Source: Gemmatimonadota bacterium (GTDB lineage Bacteria; Gemmatimonadota; Gemmatimonadetes; Longimicrobiales; Gaopeijiaceae). Taken from it: DNA of 45,896 bases. Position 1 is the stretch's first letter; the number at the start of each line of letters is the position of its first letter. Position numbers and translations under genes: made by a program. The notes under the pieces were generated by a model. The model saw nothing but the letters and a program-made list of their open reading frames with translations. It was not told where the DNA came from and made no database searches. Below are positions 12,503 to 45,191 of this stretch, one piece after another. The stretch is from positions 1 to 45,896 of the forward strand of contig VXMI01000143.1 in assembly GCA_009841165.1 (NCBI GenBank), written 5' to 3'.

Positions 12503-13723
12503 TCACGCCGCCCAGATCTCACCCAGCACCCGCTGGAAGTTCCCGCCCAGAATCCCGCGTATGTGATCGTCGGTGTAGCCGCGCTCGATCAGCCCCTCGG
12601 TCAGGTCGAACACGCGCTTCGGGTGGTCCACCCCCTCGATGTCGATCTTCTCGCGGAAGGCGTACGAGCCCTTGTACGCGGCCTTGAGCCGCTCGTACTC
12701 GTCGGTGGGCAGGTCGTCGTAGCCGTGCAGGTCGATGTCGCTGCCGATCCCGAGGTGCTCTACGCCCACCAGATCGCGCACGTGGTCGTAGTGGTCGAAG
12801 AAGTCCACGAGCGTGGTCGGCTCCCGGTCGAGCACGAACATGCGCACGCCGGTGATCCCCATCACCCCGCCGGTCGCAGCCATCGCCCGGATCGCCTCGT
12901 CGGTCTTGGTGCGCGGGTGGCCGCCCGACAGCTCCCGGCTGTTCGAGTGCGTCAGGAGAACGGGGCGCGACGAGACCTCGCAGGCGTCGAGCGTGGTCCG
13001 GTCACCGCAGTGCGAGACGTCGACCGCCATCCCGACCTCGTTCATGCGCTGCACGATCGCGATCCCGAAGTCCGAGATGCCGCCGTCGATCCGTTCGGTG
13101 GCACCGTTGCCGATCATGTTCCGCTCATTGTAGGTGAGCTGCGAGACGCGCTGCCCGAGCCCGTGAAAAAGGTTCACGTCGTCGGGGCTGTGGAAGTGCG
13201 ACGAGGTCTGGGTGCCGATCAGGATGCCCACGCGCCCGGAGCCGTGCACGCTGGCCAGATCCTCGGCGGAGTCGATGCGCACGAAGAGGTCGGGCCGGGC
13301 CGCGATCATTGCGTTGTACCCCGCGACGAAGAGCAGGGTGTTGCGGTACTGGTCGGCGAAGTCGCGCCCCCCGATCCCCACTCCAATGTGGAAGACGTCG
13401 ATCTCCGAGTCGCGGAACTCCTGCTCCTCCGCGGCGGTCATGCCGGACAGATCCGACCCCCACCGCTGCCGCACGGACGACGAGATGGCAAGCGGCGAGA
13501 GCATGTCGATCACGAGCGACCCGGCGACCAGGTCGACGCACCGGGTGGAGTACTCCTGGGGGGTTCCGGCCAGACCGTCACGGCGGCGAGCCACCAGCTT
13601 GACGCGGCCGAGGCTTAGGAATGGGGCGGCGATGGCGAGGCCTGCAGCTCCACCGGCGGCTTTCACCATGGTCCGACGGGTCAGCATTGCGGTCGGTCTC
13701 GGATGGGCGCTGTCTTTACTCAT
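12503..13723 (-). CDS. Membrane dipeptidase, M19 (renal dipeptidase) family, Tat-exported
   Basis: The 406-residue form starting MSKDS (13723) carries a twin-arginine signal, LTRRTMVKAAGG, followed by a hydrophobic stretch. An ATG at 13735 would add four residues. M19 features include VIDMLSP at the usual DxHxD position, FHIGVGIGG, VDVSHCGDRT, LTHSNSR and LGIGSDIDLHG. Metal site 1 reads D-M-L rather than D-G-H, so ligand loss there should be checked. M19 enzymes hydrolyse dipeptides and often accept a C-terminal D-residue. The first codons overlap the end of vapC by 8 bases, so the gene appears coupled to the toxin-antitoxin pair. Downstream genes process D-amino acids, which fits release of D-residues from dipeptides. 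Confidence 0.88.
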   Translation of the reverse strand: MSKDSAHPRPTAMLTRRTMVKAAGGAAGLAIAAPFLSLGRVKLVARRRDGLAGTPQEYSTRCVDLVAGSLVIDMLSPLAISSSVRQRWGSDLSGMTAAEEQEFRDSEIDVFHIGVGIGGRDFADQYRNTLLFVAGYNAMIAARPDLFVRIDSAEDLASVHGSGRVGILIGTQTSSHFHSPDDVNLFHGLGQRVSQLTYNERNMIGNGATERIDGGISDFGIAIVQRMNEVGMAVDVSHCGDRTTLDACEVSSRPVLLTHSNSRELSGGHPRTKTDEAIRAMAATGGVMGITGVRMFVLDREPTTLVDFFDHYDHVRDLVGVEHLGIGSDIDLHGYDDLPTDEYERLKAAYKGSYAFREKIDIEGVDHPKRVFDLTEGLIERGYTDDHIRGILGGNFQRVLGEIWAA

Positions 13724-14165
13724 GTGGCTTCTCATGTACTCGAAGACTCGTTTTCGGAACGGTTTCGACCTGCATGTACCGAGCAGCGCGAATCAGCGCG
13801 CGGTCGAGCGTCGCAAGTTGAACACCACGCCTCATGGCCAGCTCAAGATAGGCTGCGTCATAGGTGCTGAGGCTGCATTCGCGGGCCAGCAGCAGGGTTT
13901 CTCGCAGCGCACGCTCATCGGTCTCGGTATCGGTGACTATTGCAAGCCTTCGCAGGAGATGGAGATAGGTCGCGACCTTCGCCTTCGCAATGCGCTTCAT
14001 CCTTTCGGCGCGCACCAGAACATTGCCGATTTCCAGGTGCCAGATCCCTGGGACCAGCGCACCCTCGCTCCTCAGCCGGTCCAGCAGTGCCTCGGTCTCC
14101 GGCGTACCCTGGTCCGGGAACAGCCATGTAGCCGTCACTGAGCAGTCGAGTACGAACGCGCTCAT
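13716..14165 (-). CDS. vapC: PIN-domain toxin (VapC type)
   Basis: The 149-residue product has the four acidic PIN residues in order: D7 (FVLDCS), E45 (WHLEIGN), D103 (TYDAAYLELA) and D121 (TLDRAL). VapC toxins are Mg2+-dependent ribonucleases, usually cutting tRNA or rRNA, and are held inactive by the partner antitoxin. The ATG overlaps the antitoxin's TGA (ATGA), the usual coupling. The end runs 8 bases into the dipeptidase gene, so the toxin lies at the head of a catabolic operon. The site looks intact, so it is probably functional. Confidence 0.9.
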   Translation of the reverse strand: MSAFVLDCSVTATWLFPDQGTPETEALLDRLRSEGALVPGIWHLEIGNVLVRAERMKRIAKAKVATYLHLLRRLAIVTDTETDERALRETLLLARECSLSTYDAAYLELAMRRGVQLATLDRALIRAARYMQVETVPKTSLRVHEKPHE

Positions 14166-14401
14166 GGACGCCCCTCGTCCCGCAGTTCCTTCCAGTCCAA
14201 ATCGCCGAGAGTGACGCCCTCGCGTATGGACCGAAGCTCCCGAATCGCGTCGGCGACATCGCGCCTGTCCGGCTGCTCAACCGGAACGAGGCGCGCAACG
14301 GGCACACCTCGTCTGGTTATCAGGACCTCCTCACCCTTGGCCACCTTCTTGAGCAACGACGAAAGGTGTGTCTTGGCATCGAACGCACCAACCGTGATCA
14401 T
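14162..14401 (-). CDS. vapB: Phd/YefM-family antitoxin (VapB role)
   Basis: The ATG at 14401 (MITVGAFDAKTHLSSLL) has AAGGAGG five bases upstream and gives 79 residues, the usual length. The N-terminal half matches the Phd/YefM DNA-binding fold (AKTHLSSLLKKVAKGEEVLITRRGVPVARLVP). The acidic C-terminus (LDWKELRDEGRP) would wrap the toxin. Such antitoxins repress their own promoter by binding a palindrome, and a perfect one lies directly upstream at 14428-14446. Confidence 0.9.
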   Translation of the reverse strand: MITVGAFDAKTHLSSLLKKVAKGEEVLITRRGVPVARLVPVEQPDRRDVADAIRELRSIREGVTLGDLDWKELRDEGRP

Positions 14402-14427
14402 GTGATCCTCCTTGGGAGAAACAGACA

Positions 14428-14446
14428 ACTAGTTTAGTAAACTAGT
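14428..14446. promoter_or_regulatory. Perfect 19-bp palindrome, probable vapBC operator
   Basis: ACTAGTTTA-G-TAAACTAGT is a perfect inverted repeat (9+1+9). It begins 27 bases before the antitoxin ATG and overlaps the predicted -10 box. Type II antitoxins of this family autoregulate through such sites. Confidence 0.75.
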
Positions 14447-29874: not shown

Positions 29875-31482
29875 TCACTCCAGCGCACGCATGTGCCATT
29901 TCCTCAGCGTCGTCTTCTCGACCTTCTCCGTCGGCGTCTTCGGCAGCACGTCCAGGAAACGCACGAACAGGGGCACCATGTAGCGGGCCATGCGCCCTCG
30001 GCAATAGTCCAGCAGTTCGTCGGCGGAAAGATCGTGCCCGGGCCGCAGTGCCACCGAGACCGCCACGTCCTCTTCCGTGTACTCGCTGGGCACGCCGTAC
30101 GCCGCGGCCTCCAGCACCGCCGGGTGCGCCTCGATCACCTGCTCGATCTCGTACGCCGAGATGTTCTCGCCCCGCCGCCGGATCGCGTCCTTCCTGCGCC
30201 CCTCGAAGTAGAGGTTGCCGTCTTCGTCGAGGCGCCCCAGGTCTCCGGTGTGGAACCAGCCGCCGCGGAATACCTCGCGGTTGAGGTCGCGCATCCGGTA
30301 GTAGCCGGTCAGCAGGAGGTGGCGGTCCTCGTCACGCGCGGGCCGGACGACGATCTCGCCGATCCCGCCGGAGGGCAGCGGCCGGTCGTCGTCGTCCACG
30401 ATCCGCAGGCGGAACTCGGGGACCACGCGGCCGCACGATCCCGTCGGGTAGGACTCGCCCGGATCCTGCCAGACCATGACGCCGCCCTCGGTCGAGCCGT
30501 AGCCCTCGATCAGCGTGAGGCCGAACCGCTCCTCGAAGTCGTGCTTGAAGGCGGGCATCGGCACGCCCCATGCAAGCCGGGCCGGGTTGTCGGCGTCGTC
30601 CGGCCGCAGTTCCTGCTTGTGGATGAAGGTCAGCGTCGCGCCCATGAAGTCGAAGATGGTGACGCCGTAGCGCCGCACGTCCGCCCAGAAACGCGATACG
30701 CTGAAGCGCTCGGTCACAACCGCCGTGACTCCCGCCCACAGCGCGGGCGCGATCGTGCCGATGGTCGCGTCCCAGTGGAAGACGGGGTAGGGGCAGAAGA
30801 GCACGTCGTCGCCGCGCACGCCGGCCGACCGCGCCATGATGCGCGCGTGGCCGAGCACGTAGCGGTGGGACAGCTCGCACGCCTTGGACATCCCGGTGGT
30901 GCCGGAGGTGTAGATCAGCAGCGAGGGGGCCGCGCCGGTGGGCGGGGGTGCCGGGGGCACACCGTCGTCGCCGACGTCGAGGGCGTCGAGTGCAAGGGTG
31001 GCGAAACAACCGCTCGCCGGGGCTGGCCCGCCGCGCACGATTAGGCGCTCGACGTCTTCCAGGTCGCCCGCGACCTCGTGCACCGCGTCCACCAGCGAGT
31101 GATCGACCACCAGGTCCCGCGACCCTGTCAGGTTGATGGCGTGCGCCAGTCCCGGTCCGCGGAATTCGGTGTTCAAGGGCGCCCACACCGCGCCGGCCCG
31201 GTTGGCCGCGAACCAGAGGACGGCCGCATCCGCGCAGTTGGGAAGGAGGGTCGGGACGATACGCGAGGCACCGTCGGGAGTCGTGGCGCCCACGCCGTCC
31301 GGGGCGCCCAGCCCGGCCACGCGGTGGCGCCGCAGCCCTGCCGCCAGCGACCGGGTACGGGCCTCGAAGGCCGCGTAGGTGAGGTCGGCCTCGCGGAAGC
31401 GCACGAAATGCCTGTCGGGGTGCTGCCGCGCTCTTTCGGCGAGCGTGGAGACGATGGTGGCAGTGCTGGATGGGCTAGCCAT
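29875..31482 (-). CDS. AMP-forming acyl-CoA synthetase/ligase (ANL superfamily)
   Basis: The 535-residue form starting MASPSSTA (31482) covers the whole family; the RBS is weak, and longer starts upstream are possible. Motifs in order are LLIYTSGTTGMSK (ATP loop), EGYGSTEGG, GWFHTGDLG with RRKDAIRRRGENIS (hinge), and the catalytic lysine in TPTEKVEKTTL. The enzyme adenylates a carboxylic acid and transfers it to CoA; sequence context is closest to the crotonobetaine/carnitine-CoA ligase type, but the substrate is not certain. It heads the operon ligase-CocE hydrolase-barrel. The 289-base upstream gap carries two identical GGGAGCATTCCC sites. Confidence 0.9.
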   Translation of the reverse strand: MASPSSTATIVSTLAERARQHPDRHFVRFREADLTYAAFEARTRSLAAGLRRHRVAGLGAPDGVGATTPDGASRIVPTLLPNCADAAVLWFAANRAGAVWAPLNTEFRGPGLAHAINLTGSRDLVVDHSLVDAVHEVAGDLEDVERLIVRGGPAPASGCFATLALDALDVGDDGVPPAPPPTGAAPSLLIYTSGTTGMSKACELSHRYVLGHARIMARSAGVRGDDVLFCPYPVFHWDATIGTIAPALWAGVTAVVTERFSVSRFWADVRRYGVTIFDFMGATLTFIHKQELRPDDADNPARLAWGVPMPAFKHDFEERFGLTLIEGYGSTEGGVMVWQDPGESYPTGSCGRVVPEFRLRIVDDDDRPLPSGGIGEIVVRPARDEDRHLLLTGYYRMRDLNREVFRGGWFHTGDLGRLDEDGNLYFEGRRKDAIRRRGENISAYEIEQVIEAHPAVLEAAAYGVPSEYTEEDVAVSVALRPGHDLSADELLDYCRGRMARYMVPLFVRFLDVLPKTPTEKVEKTTLRKWHMRALE

Positions 31483-31549
31483 TGCTGAGAGTGACCGACG
31501 ATTCCAGGTCCATGGCTCTGTCGGGAGGGTTGGGAGACGGCGGACGGGT

Positions 31550-31667
31550 GGGAGCATTCCCAGTGTGGCCCATCGTGTCTTCGGCTGCAATGCGTCGCAA
31601 GCCCCCCTTGCGCAGGTCCGAAACGGAAGTATGTTGGCCGCGCTTTTATGCACAGGGGAGCATTCCC
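31550..31667. promoter_or_regulatory. Paired GGGAGCATTCCC sites in a divergent promoter region
   Basis: The 12-mer GGGA-GCAT-TCCC (inverted arms) occurs exactly twice, at 31550-31561 and 31656-31667. The start-to-start spacing of 106 bases is about ten helical turns. The pair lies between the acyl-CoA ligase and the AraC-like regulator. Nothing else recognisable lies in 31483-31771. Confidence 0.45.
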
Positions 31668-31771
31668 GGCACCCGGGGCACCACTCCCCCTTTCACCCGT
31701 CACGCTGCGGCAAGCAATTCTCACTCATTGACCTCCTCCAATCCGCTAGGCCCCTACACGGGCGCGCTCGT

Positions 31772-32583
31772 ATGGGGCTAGAGCAACAAGCGGCAGGCGA
31801 ATCAGCCTTCCGCCGGTTGATGATCGCGGTCCTCTCCTCGCGGAGTGCGTATGCCGACATACAGGCAGTGGCCCGCGACCATCGATGCATTCTGGCCAGC
31901 GACCAGGATGAGCTCCTGCGCCTGGCGCGAATGCTGATGCGCTCGTGCTCGAGGCGGAGGATCTGCCACCAGTTCTTGGCGTGCTGCGGGTCATAACACG
32001 AGAACATCCTCTCTTGCCCGTTATTCTCGTCATCGAGCAAGGCTCACCCGACCTGCAACGGCTGGCATCCATTACCGTCGAGGCGGTCCTCTTCCGACAC
32101 CAGATCGTCGCGCGTCTGCCGGCCGCGCTGAAGAGTTCTGTTGGGACGACCGCCGGAGTTCGAGCACTGGCGGAGGCATACATCAGGAACGAGGCAATCG
32201 CTCCGTCAGTACGCCGCCTGGTGACGTGTGCCCTGACCGCTGTACCCCCGCCGCGCACGGTCCAGCATTTGGCCCGTCTCCTGAACTCCGATCCATCAAC
32301 GGTCCGCCGCCACTGGCGGCGAGGTGTCAATTCGCATGGTATCCAGCGGGTCAAGGACCTATTGGATTGGCTCGTTCTGCTGTACGCGGCCTCGGTGAAG
32401 CGCCCGCATCTGAGTTGGCAGCTCGTCGCCGAGCGAATTGGCACGCACGAGAAGACGCTCAGACGCCTCGCTGCGCGTTTGACTGGGGAAACGCTGGGTT
32501 CTGTGGGCTCCGCCGGTCCTGAACGGCTACTGAGACGCTTTGCGGATTCTCTTGCAGAATCGTTCTGCGCGGAATTGCCCTGA
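31772..32583 (+). pseudogene. AraC-like HTH regulator with degenerate receiver domain, frameshifted
   Basis: From ATG 31772 one frame reads RRLMIAVLSSRSAYADIQAV, then ASDQDELLRLAR up to about 31930. The next frame continues NADALVLEAEDLPPVLG and VLRVITREHPLLPVILV to the stop at 32583. Joined, they make one receiver-like domain (alternating beta and helix, no obvious phospho-Asp) and a two-HTH AraC-type domain (RTVQHLARLLNSDPSTVRRH; LSWQLVAERIGTHEKTLRRL). The join is a one-base change in CGAATG; CGAAATG would restore the frame. A GTG at 31945 could give a shorter HTH protein (212 residues). It is either a recent pseudogene, a sequence error or a re-initiated product. It precedes the Cys-rich peptide operon and would be its regulator. 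Confidence 0.6.
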
Positions 32584-32601
32584 CGTGCGCGCTTTTGTGC
32601 C

Positions 32602-32629
32602 TTGTGGCGCTGTTCCCAACGACTAGACT
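32602..32629 (+). promoter_or_regulatory. Predicted promoter of the Cys-rich peptide gene
   Basis: TTGTGG (32602-32607) and TAGACT (32624-32629) are 16 bases apart. A start near 32636 falls inside the palindrome at 32631-32643. The peptide ATG is ~75 bases downstream. Confidence 0.5.
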
Positions 32630-32630
32630 G

Positions 32631-32656
32631 AGCCAGACTGGCTGAATCTGGCTGTC
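32631..32656. promoter_or_regulatory. Palindrome plus 10-bp-period direct repeat at the predicted start site
   Basis: AGCCAG-A-CTGGCT (32631-32643) is a perfect inverted repeat. CTGGCTG recurs after ten bases (CTGGCTGAAT, then CTGGCTGTCT), so two half-sites face the same side of the helix. That arrangement suits an AraC-like dimer. It directly follows the predicted -10. Confidence 0.45.
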
Positions 32657-32711
32657 TTCCAGGTTCACGGGTTCGCTCTATCAAGGCGCTGGGCGCCGGG
32701 AGGATGGTATC

Positions 32712-32984
32712 ATGAAGAAGCGGCAGAAGCGGCTGGTGACGTCAGTGAGTGCGCTGTTTGTTATGCTCCTTGCTCTTTCGGTCACATCTGGCGAGGCTGG
32801 GGTTACGTCGTCGCAAGAGGACTGCACGGACCCAGAGGGTTGCGACTACTGCTACAACGCAGGTGGCTGCTCCGACAGTTGTGGTGGTGACGAGTGCGAG
32901 GCTATTGGTGAGTGCGACACTTGGTGTGAAAAAGAGATCTGCAGTGGCAAGAAGTACTGGGTCGGATGCGAGCCTGAATACTAG
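32712..32984 (+). CDS. Exported cysteine-rich peptide precursor (ten Cys)
   Basis: The 90-residue product starts at ATG 32712, eight bases after GGGAGG. Residues 1-7 are basic (MKKRQKR), 8-24 hydrophobic, and cleavage after GEA (residue 29) would release a ~61-residue acidic peptide. All ten cysteines (38, 44, 47, 53, 57, 62, 68, 72, 77, 86) lie in the mature part, enough for five disulfides. I do not recognise a family. The layout (short signal, Cys-rich tail, propeller gene next door, thiol oxidoreductase nearby) recalls the NVEALA peptides of Bacteroidota, but there is no NVEALA sequence motif. Bacteriocin, adhesin or signalling peptide are all possible. The local GC is lower than the flanks. 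Confidence 0.8.
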   Translation: MKKRQKRLVTSVSALFVMLLALSVTSGEAGVTSSQEDCTDPEGCDYCYNAGGCSDSCGGDECEAIGECDTWCEKEICSGKKYWVGCEPEY

Positions 32985-33039
32985 TCTACGCGGTACAAAG
33001 CGTGGCTACGTCGTCAACGGGTGACCGGAGGAGCCTCGC

Positions 33040-34278
33040 GTGCGGTTACTGACCCTTGGAGCTGCGTTGGTCCTTTGTGGCCCCGGCATGCTGCGCGGGC
33101 AGACCGCGTGTCCGACCCCTTGGCAGTTGGAAGAGGTTCTGCGGATCGGATCCGTGGAAAGCACGGACTTGGTCGCGCGTGTCCTGGATCTTGCGATCGG
33201 GCCCGACAGCGCCCTTTATGTCGCCCAGGCCATGGTGCCTGCGGTCACGGTGTTCTCTCTTGATGGCCGGGTGGTTGGTCGGATCGGTCGTGCGGGACGG
33301 GGACCAGGTGACCTCGAGGTTTCGGCCAGGGGTGTGGGCTGGATGGGAGACACTCTCTGGGTAGCCGACCTCAACCGGATCCAGTTGTTCAACGCTGACG
33401 AACGCGCGCCGGAGCAGGTTATCCAATTCTCAACGGGCGTGCCCGAGGAAGGGTCGCGCCTGAGCCCGGGCCATATGCTCGCCGACGGTAATCTCATTGG
33501 CAGGCGTCGCATCACCGATGGGCGCGCCTTGTCGTCCCGAGGCGAGAACCCAGGCCTCGCGCTGCGCCGCCTTTCACGATCCGGCGAAGTGCTGGACACA
33601 ATCGCCACCGTCGAATGGCCGGGCAACGCCATTGAGCATGAGAGGGACGCTCGGTTGTTCCCTGGTGAACACCCCCTTAGAGACCTCCCCCCTCTTGGGC
33701 TCGGCGAATACCGTACCGCGCTCAAGCCCGACGGCTCCGCAGTCGTGAAGATCGGGAAGGTGCAAGAAGACGCAACTCCACCGGCCTTCGACCTTCTCGT
33801 GATATCAATCCATGGAGACACGCTCCTGCATCGGTCCGTCAAGTACGAACCCCGCGAAGTCACCCGTGCGATGGAACGCCGCCTGGCGGATGAGTATGCA
33901 AGGCAAAGGGCCGGAGATCACCGACCCTCGTCCCCAGCGTTTGAGCGCACGCGTCGTGCGGCTCTCAGTGTTTTCTGGGTTCCAGAGTATCTGCCCCCGG
34001 TCAGGCAGGTCGTGGCTGGAACGGACGGAACCATCTGGTTGCTTCGCGAGATGCGGGAGGACCGCGTCGATATCTGGGAGATCTACGATTCGGATGGCAC
34101 GCTGGAAGGCACGGTGGAGATTGGGCACGGTCGCAGTTCCGCAGTTCCCTGGGCCCCCTGGGCTCCTCGTCTCGCGGTTGCCCTCGCGAGCCGTGACGAA
34201 CTCTGGGGCGCCACGTATGACGATTTGGACGTCCCGTACATACACCGGTACCTGGTTGATCGGAAGTGCGTGCCTTAG
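33040..34278 (+). CDS. Exported six-bladed beta-propeller-like protein
   Basis: The start is the GTG at 33040, with GGAGGAG six bases upstream; 412 residues. A signal peptide (LLTLGAALVLCGPGMLRGQ) precedes C24. Repeated short-strand patterns such as VLDLAIGPDSALYVAQ, VFSLDGRVVGRIGRAGRGPG, GDTLWVADLNRIQLFNAD and VAGTDGTIWLLREM are NHL/6-bladed-propeller features, as in the BF3164-like lipoproteins. GRAGRGPGDL is a frequent signature in this group. It lies 55 bases after the Cys-rich peptide and is probably co-transcribed. Such propellers are mostly of unknown function; binding of the partner peptide is a reasonable guess. A lipobox is not clear. Confidence 0.8.
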   Translation: MRLLTLGAALVLCGPGMLRGQTACPTPWQLEEVLRIGSVESTDLVARVLDLAIGPDSALYVAQAMVPAVTVFSLDGRVVGRIGRAGRGPGDLEVSARGVGWMGDTLWVADLNRIQLFNADERAPEQVIQFSTGVPEEGSRLSPGHMLADGNLIGRRRITDGRALSSRGENPGLALRRLSRSGEVLDTIATVEWPGNAIEHERDARLFPGEHPLRDLPPLGLGEYRTALKPDGSAVVKIGKVQEDATPPAFDLLVISIHGDTLLHRSVKYEPREVTRAMERRLADEYARQRAGDHRPSSPAFERTRRAALSVFWVPEYLPPVRQVVAGTDGTIWLLREMREDRVDIWEIYDSDGTLEGTVEIGHGRSSAVPWAPWAPRLAVALASRDELWGATYDDLDVPYIHRYLVDRKCVP

Positions 34279-34439
34279 CAGAAGTGTCGGGATCGGGCGG
34301 TTTCATTGCGAGAAAACGACGTATCCTGGTGGCACGGTGGCAAGGGCGTGCTGACTTGGTCGGTTCGCCAGTCTCTCACCCATCTCGCTGCGCCGACAAT
34401 TGGCGTCTGCGGCCAACAGAACCACCACGGAGGTGATTG

Positions 34440-35114
34440 ATGGCGAAGGCGAACTGGTTTGAGCGTATGATAGATGTCGCAACCCTGGGTGCCGGACTTG
34501 CGGCCGTGGTTGTGGCGGGAGTGTTGCTCGTTCGGACGATTGGTCCAGACCCTTCATCGGGCGGACCTGAGGGGGTGTCAGGCTGGCAGCGGTATGCCGG
34601 GGTCGGGCACCGACTGGGACCGGAAACGGCAGCCGTAACGATCATTGAGTTCGGTGACTATCAGTGCCCCTACTGCCGGGCATCGGAGGCCCATCTGGAG
34701 GCGATTCGGAGAGAATACGGCAACGACGTATCGCTGGTGTATAGACATTTTCCGTTGTCGGGGCATGGTTCGGCCTACTCGGCTGCACGCGCGGCGGAGT
34801 GCGCTGGAAAGCAGGATCGGTTCTGGGAGTTCCATGAGTTGCTCTATTCCACCACCCGTTGGATCGAGGACACGTCCGAGGGCGGGCTGGCGGGGCTAGC
34901 TGAGCAGGCCGGTGTGGTGAGCGTTGAACAGTTCACCCGCTGCCTTGCCGATCGCGAGATTGACGACCTTGTGAACGCCGACCTGGCGGCGGGACGAGAA
35001 CTGGGAATTCGGGGAACGCCTACGTTCCTGGTGAACGGGGAGCTTCATGCAGGCGTCCTCGATTCACTCCGGTTCAAGGTGTTGTTCGACGAGCTGGGTG
35101 AGGGTCGGCCCTGA
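34440..35114 (+). CDS. Membrane-anchored DsbA-like thiol-disulfide oxidoreductase (CPYC)
   Basis: The ATG at 34440 follows GGAGG by six bases; 224 residues. One membrane segment (residues ~13-33) leaves the rest in the periplasm. The active site is C76-P-Y-C79 (FGDYQCPYCR) and the cis-proline loop is GIRGTPTFLVNG, typical of DsbA/BdbD-like (Thioredoxin_4) enzymes that form disulfides. AAECAGKQDRFWEFHELLY is a further family signature. It lies 161 bases downstream of the propeller gene; its position near a ten-cysteine exported peptide suggests that the peptide is a substrate. A partner DsbB is not in the window. A related lipoprotein occurs at 44421. Confidence 0.88.
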   Translation: MAKANWFERMIDVATLGAGLAAVVVAGVLLVRTIGPDPSSGGPEGVSGWQRYAGVGHRLGPETAAVTIIEFGDYQCPYCRASEAHLEAIRREYGNDVSLVYRHFPLSGHGSAYSAARAAECAGKQDRFWEFHELLYSTTRWIEDTSEGGLAGLAEQAGVVSVEQFTRCLADREIDDLVNADLAAGRELGIRGTPTFLVNGELHAGVLDSLRFKVLFDELGEGRP

Positions 35115-35128
35115 CACCCCCGCCGCCG

Positions 35129-35638
35129 CTAAGAATCCCGCGGCGTCAGCCAGATCGACAGCCAGTCGCCCACCAGCGCCGGCCTCTCTTCCCCCTCGAT
35201 CTCCACCCGGCAACCCAGTGTCACCTGGCGCTGGCCCGGCTTGCGGTCGCGCACGTCCTTGACGGTGAAGTGCCCGCGGATGCGCGATCCGGAGAGGACC
35301 GGGGCGACCAGGCGGACGCCCTCGAACCCGTAGCTGGCGGGATAGCCGTCGCCGATGCCGCCGTCCATGGGGTAGCGGTAGATCTGGTAGAGCATCGGGG
35401 TCATGAGCGACATGGTCAGGAAGCCGAAGGAGATCGTGCGGCCCCAGGGGCTGTGCTCGGCCGCGTACGCCGGGTCCACGTGGTGCGGGTCGGGGTCCTC
35501 GGTGATCTCGCCGAAGGCGCTGATGCGGTCCTGGTCGACTTCGATCCAGTCCGAGACGAAGGTGCGGCCGACGGCCTGGTCGACGGTTTCGGGCGTGATG
35601 TAGTCGCGTTCGGACGCGGCGGCGGATTCGCGGGTCAT
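35129..35638 (-). CDS. MaoC-like hot-dog (R)-hydratase
   Basis: The 169-residue protein has the hydratase-2 motif in DQDRISAFGEITEDPDPHHVDPAYA, with the catalytic Asp/His pair in DPDPHHVD, followed by SFGFLTMSLMTPML. MaoC enzymes hydrate 2-enoyl-CoA to (R)-3-hydroxyacyl-CoA or act in side-chain degradation; the specific substrate is unknown. The ATG overlaps the permease stop (ATGA), so the two are coupled. It is convergent with the DsbA-like gene, 14 bases away. Confidence 0.85.
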   Translation of the reverse strand: MTRESAAASERDYITPETVDQAVGRTFVSDWIEVDQDRISAFGEITEDPDPHHVDPAYAAEHSPWGRTISFGFLTMSLMTPMLYQIYRYPMDGGIGDGYPASYGFEGVRLVAPVLSGSRIRGHFTVKDVRDRKPGQRQVTLGCRVEIEGEERPALVGDWLSIWLTPRDS

Positions 35639-44424: not shown

Positions 44425-45191
44425 ACAGACAATACAGACGAGCAAGATATGGCCGCGCGGCGGCGGTGATGGCACTGTCGGCGGCACTGGCCTGCGGCGG
44501 TGATCAAGAGGCCGACACGGGAGCCGCGGCGACCGGCGCCGAGACATATTCCGGCCCCGAGTCCCAGTCCGTCCCCACCTCCATGCTGTCGGATGGCGGA
44601 ACGAGCGCGGTACCGCCCGCGCAGGAGTTCCAGCTGCCCGAACTCGGCTTCGACTTCGGTTCGGAGGAGGCGCCGATCAAGGTCGTCGAATTCAGCGACT
44701 ACGGGTGCGGCTACTGCCGCCGATTCCACACCGAGACCTTCCCCACGCTCAGGACCGATTACATCGAGACGGGCAGGGTACAGTGGAAGTACGTGACCTA
44801 CGTGAGCGGCATGTTCGCCAACGGCATGGTCGCCGCCTACGCCGCCGAGTGCGCCGGCGAGCAGGACCTGTTTACCCCGATGAGCGAGCTGCTCTACGAA
44901 CGCCAGCCCGACTGGAAGAGCCTGGGCGAACCCTACCCGGTGTTCGAGGAGCTGGCCCAGGAGGTCGGCTTGAACACCGAGGACTTCCGCGCGTGCATCG
45001 CCGAGCAGCGGCCGAGGCCGAGGGTGCGGAGCGGAATCCTGAGCGGCGCGCGGCTCGGGGTGCGCGGGACGCCGTCGTTCCTGGTGAATGGGCTGCCGAT
45101 CGTGGGTGCGCAGCCGCTGCCCTATTGGGAGGGCCTCTTCAGCGCCATCGAGGAGGAGATCGGTGGGGGGGATGGCGGATCCGGGTTCTAG
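44421..45191 (+). CDS. Lipid-anchored DsbA-like thioredoxin-fold protein (CGYC)
   Basis: The GTG at 44421 overlaps the RDD stop (GTGA) and gives 256 residues with a lipobox (ALAC, Cys25). The active site is C96-G-Y-C99 in FSDYGCGYCRRF and the cis-proline loop is GVRGTPSFLVNGLP, both DsbA/Thioredoxin_4 features. AAECAGEQDLFTPMSELLY is shared with the CPYC protein at 34440. It would act at the envelope on exported thiols. Unlike that protein it is high in GC and has no Cys-rich partner nearby. Confidence 0.87.
   Translation: MNRQYRRARYGRAAAVMALSAALACGGDQEADTGAAATGAETYSGPESQSVPTSMLSDGGTSAVPPAQEFQLPELGFDFGSEEAPIKVVEFSDYGCGYCRRFHTETFPTLRTDYIETGRVQWKYVTYVSGMFANGMVAAYAAECAGEQDLFTPMSELLYERQPDWKSLGEPYPVFEELAQEVGLNTEDFRACIAEQRPRPRVRSGILSGARLGVRGTPSFLVNGLPIVGAQPLPYWEGLFSAIEEEIGGGDGGSGF

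Follow-up and report, generated by a model that had tools for sequence, protein, structure and literature searches.

In the NVEALA loci of Bacteroidota a short exported peptide containing cysteines is encoded near a secreted propeller, and the heavy chain of methylamine dehydrogenase is a seven-bladed propeller. Operons with a thiol-disulfide oxidoreductase of their own have been described for several bacteriocins (pediocin PA-1/PedC, sublancin/BdbA and thermophilin 13/BlpGst; PMC4919988), methylamine metabolism depends on both MauE and MauD, the former of which has been proposed to have a disulfide role (cited in PMC7794033), and in Myxococcus xanthus Oar is needed to export a periplasmic protein (Oar/PopC; PMC6434023). 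Here we compare with these systems a four-gene island in a 45,896-nucleotide (nt) stretch of DNA from a Gemmatimonadota bacterium (contig VXMI01000143.1 of assembly GCA_009841165.1; the whole stretch is referred to as the window), whose genome is a 4.27-Mb draft. The island contains only genes for a regulator, an exported cysteine-rich peptide, a propeller and a DsbA-like enzyme with a CPYC motif, all on the plus strand, and sequence comparisons indicate that it is probably a cassette making an exported, disulfide-bonded mini-protein by means of a dedicated DsbA, with the propeller as a docking or presenting partner.

The cassette was horizontally acquired. Four close relatives (G013, G023, G022 and G017) have an empty site at the corresponding position, at which the acyl-CoA synthetase-like side is joined directly to the MaoC side and approximately 42 nt stand in place of the 3656 nt (3.66 kb) of the island (31462..35117). 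The flanking DNA is collinear as far as 31461 and resumes at 35117/35118, or, in the more distant G017, is collinear to 31431 and resumes at 35141. The GC content of the island is 0.621 compared to 0.691 in both 4-kb flanks, and that of third codon positions is 0.66–0.70 in the module genes compared to about 0.8–0.93 in most neighbouring genes. No terminal repeats or duplication were found around the island ends, which leaves mobile-element ends unsupported, and there is no integrase or transposase within 31462–35117. In a fifth relative (G019; locus L187, contig G019:C26, around 6083) only the two outer ends of the island are left, joined at the equivalent of 31668/34948; since both insertion ends remain, the island was once present in this genome and has been mostly deleted, with the loss of 3.3 kb of its middle. 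An earlier sequence-only reading of this DNA had delimited the module as 31772–35114, with its genes on one strand and its GC content below that of both flanks. The module as a whole is confirmed, as are its strand and composition, but its natural boundary, as drawn by the empty sites in four relatives, is 31462–35117.

The association of these genes was assessed in 32 loci from 24 genomes, 31 of them chosen by similarity rank of the DsbA regardless of the presence of a peptide or propeller and one (L158) fetched for its regulator. To count as a peptide gene, an exported open reading frame (ORF) had to be no longer than 110 amino acids (aa), contain at least four cysteines and lie on the same strand, no more than 1.7 kb away; a simple hydrophobicity rule was used to call signal peptides, we made the gene calls ourselves, and most of the genomes compared are drafts. 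Controls were 20 loci surrounding housekeeping DsbA genes in related genomes, drawn from the same order but from genomes other than those with cassette loci. A same-strand exported cysteine-rich ORF was present in 24/31 DsbA-selected loci (25/32 with L158) and a propeller in 19/31, compared to 0/20 controls in each case (Fisher exact test, 1.2e-8 for the peptide and 3.4e-6 for the propeller without L158, 7e-9 and 5e-6 with it). Such ORFs occur at a density of 0.236 per kb in the neighbourhood of the cassette DsbA, compared to 0.008 per kb on the opposite strand and 0.010 per kb in the background (417 kb of strand sequence). Most of the loci that were negative in the scan hold a short cysteine-rich ORF when examined by eye (L166 5840–6094, L167 6852–7004, L169 3118–3309), while L156 and L175 stop at contig ends. 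A distinct clade of membrane-anchored DsbA-like proteins is almost always encoded beside a cysteine-rich precursor; the third partner of this pair is most often the secreted propeller, sometimes fused to the DsbA. The sequence-only reading had staked its case on the co-occurrence of the three genes in related genomes, and peptide, propeller and CPYC genes do recur together in divergent genomes. That they are chance neighbours in a low-GC stretch, as might be imagined from the occurrence of close propeller orthologs without a peptide, is refuted by the enrichment over the matched control, by the fusions and the independently peptide-selected loci described below, and by the existence of a dedicated DsbA clade.

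The DsbA-like thiol oxidoreductase (34440..35114, plus strand, start codon ATG at 34440; CPYC active-site motif at 34665..34676, plus strand) bears an N-terminal hydrophobic anchor and belongs to the DsbA/Thioredoxin_4 group by its profile matches (Thioredoxin_4, E 1.7e-29; DSBA, E 3.5e-22). The DsbAs of the cassettes group together in a single clade (support 100/100), separated from the housekeeping DsbAs by a long branch; the groups in this tree were chosen by similarity rank, so that it is descriptive and not a blind test. A second DsbA-like stretch, 35% identical, lies in the window at 44589–45113 on the plus strand, inside an open frame of 556 aa.

The peptide gene (32712..32984, plus strand) encodes a precursor of 90 aa with ten cysteines after the leader. 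The signal peptide (32712..32798) comprises approximately 29 residues up to a predicted cut site; it is of Sec type and is nearly identical in G010 and G193, while the mature part diverges. Homologs with 55–65% identity were found in three genomes, two from another genus of the same family and one from another family of the class. Alignment A3 brings together nineteen peptides from three families of this class, and eight cysteines make up their common core. By window numbering, C38, C53, C57, C68, C72 and C86 never vary, and C62 is conserved in at least 90%; conservation is essentially restricted to cysteines and no tryptophan is conserved. The ten cysteines of the window peptide are this core plus an extra pair inside a 9-residue insertion. 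A profile built from 13 peptides finds members in 19/395 genomes of the phylum, and further peptide types with four to eight cysteines, also in a fourth family (f2), share the same DsbA clade; most cassette peptides have six to twelve. Non-synonymous divergence (dN) from G010 or G193 is 0.29–0.41 in the mature peptide compared to 0.12–0.13 in the propeller, with the cysteines retained, and is below synonymous divergence in both leader and mature part. The peptide is therefore a genuine product that is under purifying selection and yet changes fast, its mature part outpacing its partners.

Searches of Pfam, NCBIfam and PADLOC with the peptide gave no consistent family match, and there was none in plasmids or phages. 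Weak individual matches (nec1, 0.0014; MauE, 0.026; Big defensin, 0.28) were judged to be due to chance, none being common to the members of an alignment. The module occurs in dozens of versions across Gemmatimonadota, and their peptides belong to no family yet described.

The propeller ORF (33040..34278, plus strand) begins 55 bases past the peptide stop and encodes a secreted six-bladed beta-propeller of DUF5128-like type. Its AlphaFold2 model has a predicted local distance difference test score (pLDDT) of 90.1 and a predicted template modelling score of 0.89, with strands readable as six blades and a helical insertion at about residues 276–311. In the PDB its structure is matched best by NHL domains and by two proteins that Bacteroides exports, 3s9j of the DUF4221 family (307 residues aligned, Z 16.0) and 4raa (Z 14.7). 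The model, together with these propeller matches, supports a six-bladed fold. The match of the window propeller to DUF5128 (PF17170) falls below the cut-off (E 0.02), while the cassette propellers of L157, L162, L178 and L185 exceed it. A match to peptidyl-alpha-hydroxyglycine lyase (3fvz, Z 13.4) was considered as a clue to function and set aside, being no better than those to many unrelated propellers.

A small exported cysteine-rich subunit, a propeller and a thioredoxin-like helper together match the parts list of a methylamine dehydrogenase-like redox enzyme, with the peptide in the place of the light chain, the propeller in that of the heavy chain and the DsbA as a MauD-like maturation factor. 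We disfavour this explanation as very unlikely: Pfam scans of the window and cassette peptides gave no light-chain family match, the conserved tryptophan pair is missing from A3, where essentially only cysteines are conserved, there are six blades here and seven in the known heavy chain, and the island has no mauG-like gene.

The order and make-up of the cassette vary among relatives, while the association itself is constant. The order is peptide–propeller–DsbA in the window, G010 and G018, peptide–DsbA–propeller in seven genomes (G016, G029, G041, G060, G098, G019 and G022), propeller–peptide–DsbA in G020 and DsbA–peptide–propeller in G390, which belongs to another family. In G193, also of another family, the peptide is 62% and the propeller 79% identical to those of the window, and the DsbA is read in two frames. 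Loci selected by their peptide in other families of the class again include a DsbA and a propeller (L217, L218, L220); L218, from yet another family, encodes a peptide, a DsbA, a propeller-size protein without a Pfam match and an Oar-like protein. Fusions of DsbA and propeller, about 600 aa in length, adjoin peptide genes at three loci (L158 3109–4896, L183 8526–10325, L186 920–2725); Pfam confirms both halves in L186, and in L158 the identity of the second half is suggested by its length only. The DsbA may also be replaced: G011 has two peptide genes with a membrane-anchored thioredoxin-fold CSFC protein in its stead and an exported protein of propeller-like appearance, and G361 has two peptides with a CPAC redoxin-like protein, probably a replacement. 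Longimicrobiaceae-like loci of family f2 (L168, L171, L173, L174, L182) encode a peptide with four cysteines, a small PDZ protein, a DsbA and an Oar-like outer-membrane barrel, and are a possible export version of the cassette.

That the island has been patchily gained and lost at a single site, that its gene order is shuffled and that the peptides are highly diverse would also fit competition genes. We regard it as possible, if somewhat unlikely, that the cassette serves bacteriocin-like antagonism, the mini-protein killing or inhibiting relatives, the DsbA maturing it and the propeller conferring immunity or sequestration; such a system would have the folding step in common with our preferred reading and would add a target and an immunity role. 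A thiol-disulfide oxidoreductase gene does stand beside an exported cysteine-containing peptide, and dedicated enzymes of this kind are established in bacteriocin operons (PedC, BdbA, BlpGst; PMC4919988). However the cassette has no export ATP-binding cassette (ABC) transporter and no recognisable immunity gene, and the searches described above gave no consistent antimicrobial family match and none in PADLOC, plasmids or phages.

Under the reading that we prefer, the precursor would be exported by Sec and then clipped by signal peptidase, after which the dedicated DsbA, with its active site in the periplasm, would oxidise the peptide to its native disulfides. The propeller would act in the same or the next step, in which the mini-protein would be docked on it or presented by it, and a fusion of propeller and oxidase therefore makes sense. 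In the Longimicrobiaceae-like relatives the Oar-like barrel and PDZ protein may take over this later task, a hint that the product, once folded, is released from the cell. With regard to the individual steps, the claim of the sequence-only reading that the DsbA-like enzyme folds the peptide is still the best-supported one, by association: the clade is dedicated, a peptide is present in nearly every locus, and where the enzyme is replaced it is by another thioredoxin-fold protein. Its further claim that the propeller binds or presents the peptide is supported by linkage only, in the form of co-occurrence and fusion, and is challenged by the Longimicrobiaceae-like loci and by the close orthologs, most of which stand without a peptide. 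Its description of the genes has held: the precursor of 90 residues has a signal peptide and ten mature cysteines, a secreted propeller-like protein follows after 55 bases and a membrane-anchored CPYC enzyme lies further downstream, its ORF ending at 35114. The count of ten cysteines was right, although they are better described as an eight-cysteine family core with an extra pair, and loss of cysteine conservation, which it had named as grounds for rejection, is contradicted by the invariant cysteine columns of the family.

Several observations count against our interpretation. The nearest solved relatives of the DsbA-like protein include not only the BdbD and DsbA oxidases but also copper-resistance proteins of ScsC type. 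The latter raise the alternative of metal handling, in which a cysteine-rich peptide would bind envelope metal and an ScsC-like DsbA would keep its thiols reduced; this appears highly improbable, as oxidases are equally among the best solved matches, the island has no metal transporter or sensor, and the peptides have no shared histidine-rich or CXXC-repeat motif. The structure model of the peptide is of low confidence (pLDDT 64), and a Foldseek search with it returned no fold match (best E 3.5). The genome of the window encodes approximately 100 secreted six-bladed relatives of the propeller (109 matches with E no higher than 1e-5, including some fragments), of which only one is a cassette propeller, and nearly all of the approximately 25 that were examined have no cysteine-rich exported ORF upstream, which argues that few propellers have been recruited into such cassettes. 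Most close orthologs of the window propeller (64–82% identical) also lack a peptide or DsbA, and the propeller must therefore have another life; when loci were selected by the propeller first, a peptide lay upstream in only a few of these orthologs, which looked at first like a refutation. The Longimicrobiaceae-like loci, for their part, have no propeller. Downstream of one close propeller ortholog (L025 7239–7487) lies a decayed DsbA, with the peptide absent, indicating a cassette in decay.

Relatives have similar or larger numbers of propeller candidates, and this expansion could be taken as a set of receptors. The propeller would then act as receptor or carrier of the mini-protein, a secreted or surface ligand, and the pair would serve in sensing, self-recognition or contact with a host. 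Besides the size of the repertoire, the DsbA–propeller fusion, the co-location of the genes and the presence of exported Bacteroides propellers among the nearest solved folds are consistent with such a role, but we consider it unlikely, given that nearly all of the propellers examined in the window's own genome lack an upstream cysteine-rich exported ORF and that the Longimicrobiaceae-like loci combine peptide and DsbA without a propeller.

The remaining gene of the island encodes a regulator with a C-terminal helix-turn-helix (31820..32583, plus strand), identified by tblastn of homologs and by weak HTH_20/HTH_28 matches. Its first 36 residues are in a different frame from the rest, with the break near 31925 and the open ORF called from 31945. 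Four homologs are intact and match the window at 61–75% identity across two frames, and the gene is therefore either a pseudogene here or affected by an assembly error; a regulator had been reported in the sequence-only reading, and is indeed present, but its reading frame is broken. Homologs of the regulator (63–69%) adjoin peptide genes every time, in G001, G011 and G029 (twice). Elsewhere in the window, inspection of the sequence shows a PIN-domain-like toxin and an antitoxin-like gene as a pair on the minus strand (13716–14428).

Taken more broadly, there is perhaps an even chance that these loci represent a phylum-wide production line, in which a peptide-dedicated DsbA clade and exchangeable partners (propeller, fusion, or PDZ protein with Oar-like barrel) would fold varied, undescribed cysteine-scaffold peptides in the periplasm and pass them to the surface or the outside. 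The recognisable DsbA clade offers a genomic handle by which secreted disulfide-rich mini-proteins can be found, whole families at a time, in a phylum that has hardly been cultured. Of the approximately 100 secreted propellers in such a genome, at least some now have a first role that can be tested, and the DsbA–propeller fusions lead to a biochemical prediction that is clear. Should the products prove active, the cassettes would be a new place to look for naturally stable peptide scaffolds.

Among known systems, the NVEALA/BF3164/DUF4221/DUF5128 loci of Bacteroidota, with which the layout had been compared in the sequence-only reading, resemble the cassette in that its propellers belong to the same fold group (DUF5128 matches, 3s9j, 4raa). 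They differ in the peptide, which has another cysteine scaffold and in the cassette is served by a dedicated DsbA clade. Neither the window peptide nor any of the 31 cassette peptides scanned matches PF14055 (NVEALA) at E up to 1, and an NVEALA-type leader motif is absent from all leaders in alignments A1–A3. The best PF14055 match in the window's own genome is sub-threshold (E 0.38) and lies in an unrelated place, while Bacteroides ihuae is among the control genomes with a match. The resemblance thus extends at most to layout, and a literature search on NVEALA or this gene layout found nothing, although such work may exist elsewhere. The methylamine dehydrogenase cluster (mauB for the heavy-chain propeller, mauA for the cysteine-rich light chain, and mauD/mauE) is alike in three of its parts and in providing a small exported protein rich in disulfides with a thiol helper, whereas the cassette has no light-chain homology, conserved cofactor residues or mauG, and its propeller has six blades. 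Oar/PopC is a precedent, for passage across the outer membrane, only in the barrel-bearing relatives: the Longimicrobiaceae-like cassettes encode an outer-membrane barrel protein of Oar type with CarboxypepD_reg beside the peptide and DsbA, while the window island has no such barrel. Compared to the bacteriocin operons, the cassette is found in a phylum whose members have an outer membrane; it has no ABC exporter but a leader of Sec type, and mostly combines six to twelve cysteines with a propeller or Oar-like barrel as partner. These operons are nevertheless the nearest established precedent, in that the gene for a small exported cysteine-containing peptide lies beside that for its own thioredoxin-fold enzyme, and the combination of a secreted disulfide peptide with a dedicated oxidoreductase is of a kind already known.

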